From: Methylomonas sp.
GTDB taxonomy: Bacteria; Pseudomonadota; Gammaproteobacteria; Methylococcales; Methylomonadaceae
NCBI GenBank assembly: GCA_026988155.1
Contig: JALSLW010000068.1
Span: forward strand, 1-64,000
Direction: 5' to 3'
Length of the DNA stretch: 64,000 bases
The notes beneath the pieces are model-generated. The model was not told the origin of the DNA and did not search any database. It worked only from the letters and a program-made list of their open reading frames with translations. How positions within the stretch are numbered: position 1 is the stretch's first letter; every line of letters starts with the position of its first letter. Below are positions 5,492-52,910 of this stretch, one piece after another. The position numbers and the translations under genes are program-made.

Positions 5492-5758
5492 ATCAAATTA
5501 CTTTAGATTATGATGATTAACATATAAACACCTTTAACGGCTAAAAAGATATTAATTATTCACACTAAAAACCTGAGTTTGCATTGATCATATAGAAACT
5601 GGTTTGTAAGCAGTACCATTTATGCATCTTTATGGAGTCAAAAGCAATAGCTAAAAATTCTACCTTTTTAATTATAAAGCTAGAGTGCATAGTTAGAGAG
5701 GTTTGTTAAATGTATATAGGTATTTGCACTTAGACTGTTTCATCAACGTCACCATTAT

Positions 5759-5888
5759 AAATAAATCAGTTAACTGCCAAGTTCAGCTGTAACTTGTTAA
5801 ATAATATGCTTAAGCAGGTTTTTCTATTCTCACCAGATGGGTGAGACTATTTCGCTTCACGTTTTGTGAAAAATCTGCAGAATAGTTA
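5759..5888 (+). repeat. Family-A dispersed repeat, copy 1
   Basis: This copy aligns with others at 24036-24169 and 52801-52910. Shared blocks in order are ATAAATCAGTT, GTAACTTG(T/C)TAAATAA, a pyrimidine-rich spacer, CACCAGATGG and TTTCGCTTC. A TTTCGC/GCGAAA-type hairpin lies near the right end. The right terminal repeat is degenerate here. Confidence 0.8.
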
Positions 5889-6605: not shown

Positions 6606-6643
6606 TAAGTACCCAAGTAAAATTAATTTAACTTGGGTACTTA
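6606..6643. repeat. Family-D palindrome, solo
   Basis: AAGTACCCAAGT and ACTTGGGTACTT flank AAAATTAATTTA. The arms match the termini of the element at 36526-36685 and the degenerate copy at 12991-13034, so this looks like an end-to-end remnant of that element. Confidence 0.75.
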
Positions 6644-9114: not shown

Positions 9115-9272
9115 TTACTACACACCTATACCCTAAATATTTTGCGATTGTTCAACATTTTCTTTGGAACACGATAGCTTTGACCTGCATTTTTTATTGC
9201 TATCATACTATCACCAGTTTTTATAGCAGTCTGGCTGGACAAGCTAAAAAGTAATATTCCTACCCTTTAATC

Positions 9273-9305
9273 ATAAATAAATCAGTTGAATGCTTAGTTC
9301 AACTG
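9273..9305 (+). repeat. Family-A repeat, short copy overlapping gene end
   Basis: ATAAATCAGTTGAATGCTTAG continues into TTCAACTG, an 8-bp stem with CAGTTGAA. The minus-strand gene at 9294-10955 takes its stop codon and last codons from this repeat. Confidence 0.7.
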
Positions 9306-12990: not shown

Positions 12991-13034
12991 TAAATACCCA
13001 AATAAAATTAATTCTTCCTTTTACTTGGGTACTA
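12991..13034. repeat. Family-D palindrome, degenerate copy
   Basis: AAATACCCAAATAAAATTAA on the left pairs imperfectly with TTACTTGGGTACT on the right. It belongs with 6606-6643 and the ends of 36526-36685. Confidence 0.65.
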
Positions 13035-13081
13035 AAGTGAGCTAGAAATAAATCATTAAATCCGCGCTCCCTATCTTCGTT

Positions 13082-24016: not shown

Positions 24017-24035
24017 CCAAGAACTCCGTTGACCT

Positions 24036-24169
24036 TAAATAAATCAGTTGAACGCTTAGTTTGACTGTAACTTGCTAAATAAACTGTTTAACTCAGTTTT
24101 CACTATTCACCAGATGGATGAGGGTTTTTCGCTTCCCGGTTTTGCGAAAAATCCGTGCTGATTTATTTG
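24036..24169 (+). mobile_element. Family-A MITE-like element, most complete copy
   Basis: Terminal inverted repeats AAATAAATCAG (left) and CTGATTTATTT (right) are perfect. Inside are CAGTTGAACGCTTAGTTTG, GTAACTTGCTAAATAA, TATTCACCAGATGG and a TTTTTCGC/GCGAAAAA hairpin. This copy defines the family boundaries. Confidence 0.8.
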
Positions 24170-24401
24170 AAAACAATTCCTGCTACTCGTTATATCCATC
24201 CCCCACAGAGTTCAACTCCACCATTATTTGAACAATAAAGCTATAGCCACGAGTTTTCCATACCAAATGTAAAAAATAAGTCATATCACACACTTTCACC
24301 CCATTACCCCCATCTCTCAACCTATCTAAAAAACAACCCCTTGTTTTAACATCAGTTTTTTATCTGGCTTAAAAATTGCTTACTTTTAATGTGCTATTTA
24401 T

Positions 24402-24484
24402 CGCCACACTCGTTGCAAAACGAGGCCGGAAAACCAAGGATCTAACGATAGAACACCTCTATAGTTAGACAGCCAGGCTGCTAC
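24402..24484 (+). promoter_or_regulatory. Candidate c-di-GMP-I-like (GEMM) riboswitch
   Basis: A structured leader lies about 110 nt before the di-haem peroxidase. It has a hairpin CTCGTT-GCAA-AACGAG with a GNRA-type loop, then GGAAAACCAAGGATCTAA. A second stem pairs TCTAAC-ATAGA with TCTAT-GTTAGA, and the 3' block is ACAGCCAGGCTGC. The order GNRA hairpin, AAA-CC-GG-TCTAA, hairpin, AGCC-GG-TGC parallels GEMM-I RNAs. The 5' block departs from the GCAAACC consensus. A covariance search (Rfam RF01051) is needed. Fallback: an unclassified structured 5' UTR. Confidence 0.42.
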
Positions 24485-24595
24485 TTAATTAAGCCCCTCC
24501 TGCTAAATCTATTTTACCGAGGCGCTTATACCTATTCGCATTGTCATTTTTTGCACTGATAAAAACTGACAGTTTTCTTAAAATAAAGGTGAAAA

Positions 24596-35912: not shown

Positions 35913-36007
35913 CAGGCCTCATGATTTATGCCCCCCTGTTTTTGTGCAGAGCCATGTACAGGGCGACAAGGGAGAGCGGCCCTTACTCGATTAGCCATTT
36001 CTATTAA

Positions 36008-36034
36008 CCTAAGCATTCAACTGATTTATTTAGG
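36008..36034 (-). repeat. Family-A repeat, short copy
   Basis: On the minus strand CCTAAATAAATCAGTTGAAT forms the 3' end of the neighbouring gene: CCT AAA TAA supplies Pro, Lys and the stop. Confidence 0.65.
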
Positions 36035-36764
36035 TTTAAGGGAAGAGTTGCTTGAGTTATTCCTAATCATTTCTATTATTCTAGTTTCAGTATAATTTAC
36101 AGATTGGTTCTCCCCTAAAATATCCTTGCGTATTTTTATTGTTAAATTACTCAATGATTCGTGAATTTTATACATATCGCCAGCAAAGCTTTTATCTTCT
36201 GAAATTACTTTGATAACATTCAGAAATGAATGATATTCATCCAATACTTCTGGCGAGGCAATAATTGACAGCTTGTGAGTGATAAATTGAAGCCTGACAA
36301 TATCCCTGTCCGCAAATTTTTCCAATATAGACATTTCTTCGATTAAGTCTAATAATTGTTGGTAAGTAGATGTTTTAAGATCAATATACCGTATGTTTTG
36401 CTCTTTTTCTATTTCAACTGATGTTTGCTTATTTAGTAACAGTGCAGTAATAAGTATTGTGGCGACTGTTCCTAAAATAATAAGAATAATCTCTTGAGTA
36501 AATGGAAAGCTGTCAGTAGCATGGTAAGTATCCAGGTAAAATTAATTTAATAGTTTTACGCAGGATTTTTTTTCATTTTAGGCCCTGAATAAATAGGCGC
36601 ATAGCGAGCTACGTAACTATTTATTCAGGGCCTAAAATGGTAAAAAAGACAAGTAAAAGGTTAAATTAATTTTACTTGGGTACTTATGCATACCTCAGAA
36701 AGGCGTATCCCGCAATAAGTGTGAATAAAGAAAGAGTTAAATAGACAATGTTTTTATCTTTCAA
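36026..36764 (-). pseudogene. Two-helix membrane protein gene split by palindromic element
   Basis: The 5' part starts at TTG 36762-36764 (AAGG about 9 nt upstream) and encodes MKDKNIVYLTLSLFTLIAG, then YAFLRYA, before TAA at 36684. The 3' part is open from about 36538 without any ATG until 36334 and encodes a second hydrophobic helix (QEIILIILGTVATILITALL). A helical, probably coiled, soluble region follows, ending at 36026. The element at 36526-36685 lies between them. Removing it with one copy of a TA joins GCA TAC CAT in frame and gives one 192-residue protein. A product from an internal start at 36334 (102 residues) is possible. The function is not recognised. Confidence 0.8.
36526..36685. 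mobile_element. Family-D/B palindromic element inserted in a gene
   Basis: Terminal inverted repeats TAAGTA(T/C)CC(A/C)(A/G)GTAAAATTAATTTAA face each other. The inner long stem pairs TTTTAGGCCCTGAATAAATAG with its complement around CATAGCGAGCTACGTAA. Flanking bases are consistent with insertion at a TA with TA duplication. It has no transposase gene. It shares GCAGGATTTTT, CATAGC-AGCTA and AAAAGACAAG with the element at 6170-6358. Confidence 0.8.
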
Positions 36765-36870
36765 GTGAATTTACCTTAATAAACAGCCGTGCTCTGGCAG
36801 CAAAACAAAGCCCCAGCTGTTTTTCCCGTTTTAACAGTTTTCTAGAGCGAGATTTCAATAAAATAAAACT

Positions 36871-37221: not shown

Positions 37222-37489
37222 GTTATTCCTATTGTTGGACGAAGCAGCTATCGAGGAGAAAAAAGCCGCTACGCCGATAAAATAAAGTGTAACTCCCATT
37301 CCCTTCCATTCTCTAAAGAAGGCGATCTGCAAGCTCATCAAGCCGCCAGTGAGGTTACACACTTATAACACCATCTCTCGAATCAAAATACAACCATTAT
37401 TATTCTTTCCACTGCAAACATTTGAAACATCAATATCTGCATGCCACCAACCGGCAAGGTTTTATCTTCTGTGAAACAGAACGGCTTCA

Positions 37490-51016: not shown

Positions 51017-52810
51017 ATGTCTAAAGACACTATTTTAATAGTAGATGATGAACGGTTCTTTTGCAGTTTATTAGAAGATATTCTTAAAGATGATTATCAG
51101 ACAATAATTGTATATGACAGCAATAAAACCATAGAAGCTCTAAGCAAACACCCCGTCGATTTAATTCTGCTCGACATCATCATGCCTGACAGTAATGGCT
51201 ACGAGGTCTGTAAAACAATAAAAAGCAATGAACTTTATCGTGACCTCCCAGTTATCTTTCTTTCAGCTAAAAATGAAATGGAAGATGAAATTAGAGGGTT
51301 TAACCTAGGCGCTGTTGATTATATTACCAAACCTATCAGTCCTCCCATTGTCAAAGCTCGAATTTCGACGCATATCGCCCTGGCTAAAGCGACCAAAAAA
51401 TTGCAGAGGCATACTCATGAGCTTGAACAGCTAGTATCTCAGCGTACGGAAAAGCTTACTCAGGAAATATCAAAAAAACAGGAGATATATGAAAAACTAC
51501 ACTATTTAGCTAATTATGACCAGCTAACATTACTCCCTAACAGAAACCTGTTTAACGAGCGTCTTGCCTACGCATACGAACTGGCGAAACGTAATAATAG
51601 CTCTTTTTGCCTGTTGCTTATCGATCTAGACCGTTTCAAATACGTCAACGATTCGCTGGGACATCATATTGGCGACTTAGTGCTGGAACAGGTTGCCCAG
51701 CGCCTATCAGCCTGTGTACGGGGTGTTGATATGGTAGCTAGGCTTGGCGGAGATGAGTTTACAGTTACCTTAACAGAATTAAAGTTTAGGGAAGATGCCG
51801 CCATCGTTGCTGAAAAAATTATAGCGGACATTGCCCAGCCTTTCGAAATACATGGCCAAATGATTCATATCGGCTGCAGCATCGGAATTTCTAGCTTTCC
51901 TGACGATGGAGAGGATTTACACTGTATGCTAAAAAATGCTGATATGGCAATGTATGCGGTTAAAGAAAAAGGCAAAAATGCTTATGCCTTTTTCTCCCCA
52001 GAGATGAGAAAGCATGCAAATCATCGAATTGAACTAGAAGAAGATTTGTATAAAGCATTAGCAAATAATGAAATCTATCTTCATTACCAGCCTATCATAA
52101 ACCTGAAAACTAAAAATATTTGTGCTGTTGAAGCCCTATTGCGCTGGAAACACCCAAAACATGGACAAATAGCTGCAGATAAAATTATCTCTATTGCTGA
52201 AGATAGCAGTCTAATTATAAAAATAGGAGAATGGGTTCTAAACAAAGCTTGTCAGCAATTATCTTTATGGCATTCTCAGGGATATACCTTTCTAAATATT
52301 GCCATTAACATGTCTGCCCGCCAATTTGACAGGAAAAATGATAGTGTAGCTTTAATAAAAAAAATGTTTGATCAATATCAAATACCTAAGCATTCTATTC
52401 ATTTAGAAATAACTGAAAGTTTAATGCAAAAGGACACTAACTTCATTTTAGAGATTCTATCCGATCTAAAAAAAATTGGCATATTGCTTTCGATTGATGA
52501 TTTTGGCACGGGCTATTCATCACTTAGTTTCCTGAGCAAATTCCCTGTTGATTTTTTAAAAATTGATCACTCATTTTTAAGAGACCTTAGTCTAGAATCA
52601 AAAAATAACATTTTGATAAAAGCCATTATTGCTATGGCACAAAGTTTGAATCTGACTGTGATCGCAGAAGGTATCGAAACTGGAGAACAGCTTTCATTTT
52701 TACAGCAGCAAGGATGCAACCAGGCTCAGGGCAATTATTTTAGTTCGCCCATTTCGGCTAGTGAAATTGAGAAAATGTTAAGAGCTGAGGCAAGGTTAAA
52801 CCTAAATTAA
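51017..52810 (+). CDS. REC-GGDEF-EAL c-di-GMP enzyme
   Basis: The 597-residue protein has a receiver (LIVDDERFF, LILLDIIMPDSNGY), a coiled linker and a GGDEF domain. The active site is ARLGGDEFTVTL, with an I-site RGVD five residues earlier. An EAL domain follows with VEALLRW, NMSARQF, ITES, SIDDFGTGYSSL, LKIDHSF and VIAEGIE. Both catalytic halves look competent, so it may make and degrade c-di-GMP under phosphorelay control. Location after the BvgS-like kinase supports that input. The stop codon lies inside a family-A repeat. Confidence 0.93.
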   Translation: MSKDTILIVDDERFFCSLLEDILKDDYQTIIVYDSNKTIEALSKHPVDLILLDIIMPDSNGYEVCKTIKSNELYRDLPVIFLSAKNEMEDEIRGFNLGAVDYITKPISPPIVKARISTHIALAKATKKLQRHTHELEQLVSQRTEKLTQEISKKQEIYEKLHYLANYDQLTLLPNRNLFNERLAYAYELAKRNNSSFCLLLIDLDRFKYVNDSLGHHIGDLVLEQVAQRLSACVRGVDMVARLGGDEFTVTLTELKFREDAAIVAEKIIADIAQPFEIHGQMIHIGCSIGISSFPDDGEDLHCMLKNADMAMYAVKEKGKNAYAFFSPEMRKHANHRIELEEDLYKALANNEIYLHYQPIINLKTKNICAVEALLRWKHPKHGQIAADKIISIAEDSSLIIKIGEWVLNKACQQLSLWHSQGYTFLNIAINMSARQFDRKNDSVALIKKMFDQYQIPKHSIHLEITESLMQKDTNFILEILSDLKKIGILLSIDDFGTGYSSLSFLSKFPVDFLKIDHSFLRDLSLESKNNILIKAIIAMAQSLNLTVIAEGIETGEQLSFLQQQGCNQAQGNYFSSPISASEIEKMLRAEARLNLN

Positions 52811-52910
52811 TCAGTTGAACGCTTAGTTTAACTGTAACTTGTTAAATAAACAGTAAAATCCAGTTTTTAACTATTCACCAGATGGGGGAGTGTATTTCGC
52901 TTCATGGTTT
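52801..52910 (+). repeat. Family-A repeat, copy 3 (right end lost)
   Basis: CCTAAATTAATCAGTTGAAC, GTAACTTGTTAAATAA, TATTCACCAGATGG and TTTCGCTTC follow the order of the copy at 24036-24169. It gives the GGDEF-EAL gene its stop and reaches to within 11 bp of the TrmL stop. Confidence 0.8.

Follow-up and report, generated by a model that had tools for sequence, protein, structure and literature searches.

In a 64,000-nucleotide stretch of a Methylomonas sp. contig (the window), a palindromic element separates two pieces of an open reading frame on the minus strand, which raises the questions of whether these pieces were once one gene, what the element is and whether the protein can still be restored. 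Overall, it is very nearly certain that an IS630-type MITE, presumably mobilised by a matching IS630 transposase, inserted at a TA in a 192-codon gene and inactivated it. The coding parts of the locus are as follows.

36687–36764, minus strand: 5′ piece, with the TTG start at 36762–36764, codons 1–26 and the first membrane helix
36026–36526, minus strand: 3′ piece, with the second membrane helix and a helical domain, open to the stop codon at 36026–36028
36026–36334, minus strand: 102-aa remnant ORF from an internal ATG, at which no homolog starts

The TTG-started 5′ piece and the start-less but open 3′ piece are present on the sequence as originally described: a Shine-Dalgarno-like AAGG (36774–36777) lies by the TTG, and the 3′ piece has no in-frame ATG, GTG or TTG before 36334. 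Deletion of the element with one TA joins GCA-TAC-CAT exactly as predicted, and 36023–36526 and 36687–36764, joined on the minus strand, give a continuous frame of TTG, 191 codons and a stop, encoding 192 aa. The gene has no lesion besides the insertion. A piece of a repeat family (AAATAAATCAGTTGAACGCTTAGTTTAACTG...), at 36004–36042, overlaps the end of the gene such that the last codons and the stop are inside the repeat; further members are at 9264–9305, 24026–24142, 52793–52910 and 5748–5865.

Restoration of a frame in silico is weak evidence in itself, and the one-gene question is settled by uninterrupted homologs. When the joined 192-aa protein was searched against 60 relatives, six full-length homologs were found, all spanning the junction in one frame with 45–75% identity (L028, 75%; L029, 58%; L030, 53%; L031–L033, 45–46%), in addition to a partial match (L034, 30%). 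These include records of a Crenotrichaceae bacterium (L028/L086), a Methylomonas sp. (L029/L097) and the methane-oxidising endosymbiont of Gigantopelta aegis (L030/L140). In a scan of named genomes that yielded 80 loci, the frame is open across the junction in 79, and the sole exception (L155) lies at the edge of its contig and starts just past the junction; one locus (L111) carries a stop in frame, 88 codons in and far downstream of the junction. The TTG start is also found in the closest homologs (L085–L089) and, when the nearest start is chosen, in 26 of the 80 loci. At the DNA level, the site is uninterrupted in L085–L089, L093 and L097 (for example, TATGCATACACT in L088 and TATGCATACAAA in L097), as judged by alignment and not by identity, because the homologs diverge from this genome near the junction. 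The gene was not found in eight same-genus genomes that were searched.

The homologs also bear on the reading in which the halves never formed one gene and the real gene is the 102-aa ORF at 36026–36334. This ORF starts with an ATG and exceeds every other ORF listed for the gene region in length, but the homologs all run through both helices, reach about 90 residues upstream of the 36334 ATG and are best conserved in the two-helix part, notably in the second helix and the stretch that follows it (PFTQEIVLIILGTVATVFITALLLNKQTAVEIEKEQ). None starts at 36334 or holds residues encoded by the element, so that the 102-aa reading is refuted and retains practically no probability. As the homologs run through the junction without interruption, the two halves once formed a single gene. 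The fold predicted for the L086 homolog (mean pLDDT, 84.7) consists of a helix at residues 3–32, a turn, a long helix at residues 36–95 and four shorter helices; on this model, the insertion point would be near the end of helix 1. Since the second helix and the following stretch are best conserved, an insertion just before them should be disabling.

The element that occupies this site has the following parts.

36525–36526, no strand assigned: left copy of the TA target site
36527–36684, no strand assigned: MITE with IS630-type ends (type A), 158 bp, TA-bounded and multicopy
36527–36550, plus strand: left terminal inverted repeat, AGTATCCAGGTAAAATTAATTTAA
36556–36654, plus strand: palindromic core, which recurs within this taxonomic family in MITEs whose ends fall into at least six different sets
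36661–36684, minus strand: right terminal inverted repeat, AGTACCCAAGTAAAATTAATTTAA
36685–36686, no strand assigned: right copy of the TA target site, TA borders being found at every full copy

The element is thus real, but each of its ends had been placed one nucleotide too far out, at 36526 and 36685. The terminal inverted repeats claimed for it were recovered as 24-bp sequences (AGTAYCCARGTAAAATTAATTTAA) with a complementarity of 92%, TA included. Stops in all six frames leave the element without coding capacity, and a single strong hairpin (–81.7 kcal/mol) is predicted if it is transcribed. Being short, non-coding, multicopy, flanked by a TA duplication and bounded by terminal inverted repeats, it qualifies as a bacterial MITE. 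Eleven full copies (160–162 bp with TAs, 94–98% identity) are present in this genome in addition to partial ones, and the flanks of the full copies are unrelated to one another. The copy described here differs from the genome consensus at three positions.

MITEs derived from IS630/Tc1-mariner elements are short, non-coding, hairpin-forming sequences that have the repeats of a resident IS630, target TA and occur in many copies. Two IS630-family elements of 1101 and 1100 bp (L036, 1411–2511, and L037, 920–2019) are located on contigs C78 and C99 of this genome; both are TA-bounded, encode an intact 332-aa DDE_3 transposase without stops and have ends of the same type as the MITE, the inverted repeats being common to both kinds of element. 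The MITE, with repeats in common with a resident DDE_3-encoding IS630 and a TA target, is likely IS630-derived, and its helper elements are likely resident; to judge from their sequences, the two intact IS630 elements can supply transposase for it.

Also frequent genome-wide are palindromes of 38, 45 and 46 bp that consist of only the two type-A inverted repeats; most are TA-bounded. Two of them are in the window.

6606–6643, no strand assigned: 38-bp relic that lacks the core and retains both type-A inverted repeats
12991–13035, no strand assigned: degenerate relic of this type, 45 bp

These 38–46-bp palindromes are probably internal-deletion relics of the MITE, and the 45- and 46-bp forms could, to judge from the sequence, have arisen when short direct repeats of the parent element (CAAGTAAAA; TTTTAC) lost the segment between them.

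In the most plausible course of events, an IS630-family element that carries the inverted repeats of the MITE would have been its partner: the transposase of this element would have mobilised the non-autonomous MITE, which would have entered the TA within codon 27 (TAC) of the 192-codon gene and thereby duplicated TA. The gene as it stands reads ...AGG TAT GCA TAA, and as this TAA is the first in-frame codon of the element, the product would end at 26 residues. Beyond this one-helix peptide, the locus could yield no more than a remnant of 102 residues without a membrane anchor; the gene is thus almost certainly disrupted and would now be a pseudogene. Of the recent TA-targeted insertion originally proposed, the targeting of a TA within one gene is well supported, but recency is only probable, as judged from the small number of differences from the MITE consensus and the lack of other lesions in the gene. 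At this level, the insertion is an ordinary gene disruption with an identifiable partner transposase.

The original prediction further suggested that precise excision or RNA-level removal could restore the protein; neither finds support. A reversible switch, in which precise removal of the element by transposase would give some cells of the population an intact gene again, would be favoured by the presence of intact IS630 transposases with matching ends and by the intact frame obtained when the element and one TA are removed. However, in vitro, ISY100, a bacterial member of the Tc1/mariner family, is cut precisely at its 3′ termini and 2 nt inward of its 5′ termini (PMC2170065), and with such cuts a transposase of the Tc1/mariner/IS630 type tends to leave a footprint instead of a clean removal. 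In addition, the deletions that this genome displays have removed internal sequence, with 38–46 bp staying behind, and a relic of this kind would not restore the frame here because TAA directly follows GCA. Precise excision would go unseen in a single assembly; the switch therefore keeps some probability, though a very small one. Removal or skipping at the RNA level, by intron-like splicing or by ribosomal bypass of the hairpin, would be compatible with the strong hairpin expected in the transcript and with gene halves that are otherwise intact. Against this, no Rfam intron family matches the element at the gathering threshold, self-splicing introns included, and a search for a group I or II intron core found none at E values up to 10; the sub-threshold Rfam matches are generic hairpins. 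A ribosome would meet the stop codon at the junction, and matching take-off and landing codons are not seen (GCA before the element, TAC at the landing site). RNA-level restoration is therefore extremely improbable, and simple inactivation by the MITE is the preferred reading.

The core of the element has a wider distribution than its ends. Across 121 genomes sampled from the taxonomic family, covering 29 genera, a covariance-model search detected the core in 38 genomes and 14 genera, often with at least 34 candidates per genome (loci L069, L074, L077–L084, L179–L188 and L189–L209). The arms that enclose the core fall into at least six sets, given here as they read at the left end.

End-type A, left end: TAAGTACCCAAGTAAAATT
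End-type B, left end: TAAGGAACGTGCACGAAATAA
End-type C, left end: TTAGGACTGAGGATGAAATAA
End-type D, left end: TTAGGGAGCTGGAAATAAATAA
End-type E, left end: TTAGGTAACTCGCAGTAAATAA
End-type F, left end: TTAAGGCGATTTCCAAGAATGAATA

All end-type representatives are 162–165 bp long, with arms of 33–36 nt and a core of 94–95 nt. For the arms, mean identity is 48% between end-types (shuffled, 35%; SD, 6%) and 84% within one; for the core, the corresponding values are 83% and 89%. The nearly equal lengths of the arms argue for divergence in place over swapping. In the stem, 12 of the 24 predicted pairs have both partners changed in one copy or more, which could result from selection for the hairpin or from one arm correcting the other as the element is replicated. 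A search of eight genomes for IS630 partners of the other end-types showed IS630 genes next to type-A ends only, yielding no mobilising transposase for the remaining five types, and three core-rich genomes had no DDE_3 match at all.

It is conceivable, if rather more doubtful than probable, that the core is a conserved, structure-constrained unit and that these elements constitute one MITE superfamily with a fixed 162–165-bp architecture, the arms of which have diverged or been replaced. If so, the same cargo would be movable by different transposases, suggesting a separate function for the core, either as RNA or as a DNA hairpin. In MITEs, the ends are usually conserved and the interiors drift; the pattern seen here reverses this rule and makes a test of core function possible.

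The interrupted gene is predicted to encode a two-helix membrane protein with a helical bundle. No Pfam, NCBIfam or PADLOC family was matched above cut-off (for PADLOC, three homologs were searched), a Foldseek search against PDB gave a best E value of 0.79 and no relatives were found in viral contigs. Assignment as a SLATT effector (2TM, CBASS-associated) was considered and rejected, as SLATT_4 scored 13.6 bits against a cut-off of 27 and the three homologs had no PADLOC match. Homologs are spread over many phyla (L085–L164; mostly 45–76% identity), most of them in MAGs that we take, from the isolate names, to represent deep-sea vent material. This spread, together with neighbours that are conserved among close relatives only, suggests horizontal transfer of the family. 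In this genome, the immediate neighbours of the gene encode a hydrolase and Cupin_8 and Cupin_3 proteins. Elsewhere in the window are a second multicopy repeat, at 37232–37441 and 1–125 in mutually inverted orientation, and a c-di-GMP-I riboswitch at 24393–24485 (RF01051; 44.4 bits, E 2e-05). Among the proteins of this genome is one of PF02461 (AmoA/PmoA family), which, together with the same-order homologs named above, points to a methanotroph of the Methylococcales, probably of the Methylomonadaceae.

More distant homologs, at about 30% identity, are found in 41 plasmid records; in pFAM21805, the gene order is mechanosensitive channel, host-gene homolog and Trx-GI. A tblastn search relating the closest homolog to OrfD gave 30% identity over 85% of the query, and the profile of the chromosomal family matches OrfD (E 7.4e-39; OrfD-related locus L166, 14959–15651). 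By sequence comparison, the host gene is thus a homolog of OrfD in the heat-resistance island LHR2/tLST2, orfC and orfD being the names used in PMC5383660. The gene thereby reveals a family lacking a Pfam model that is related to an unexplained gene of a transmissible heat-resistance island, and a role of its product in the envelope or in stress tolerance might be envisaged.

Compared with OrfD of LHR2/tLST2 (PMC5383660; PMC8290217), the homology extends over nearly the whole interrupted gene, but identity is only about 30% and the gene here is stand-alone and chromosomal, without the tLST island genes (clpK, sHsp20, yfdX, hdeD and trx) next to it. In Thiomargarita nelsonii, a MITE insertion in hupL and a MITE associated with a group I intron of dsrA have been described (PMC4853749). 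The two cases are alike in that MITEs lie inside genes of a marine gammaproteobacterium and in the TATA-bounded hairpin element; unlike in T. nelsonii, an intron is not involved here and a probable parental IS is identified. A further parallel is with bacterial MITEs derived from IS630/Tc1-mariner elements, such as Nezha of cyanobacteria (cited in PMC10969869): the element described here is likewise short, non-coding, multicopy and hairpin-forming, with IS630-matched repeats and a TA target, but its core recurs, in other genomes, in MITEs with quite different ends.
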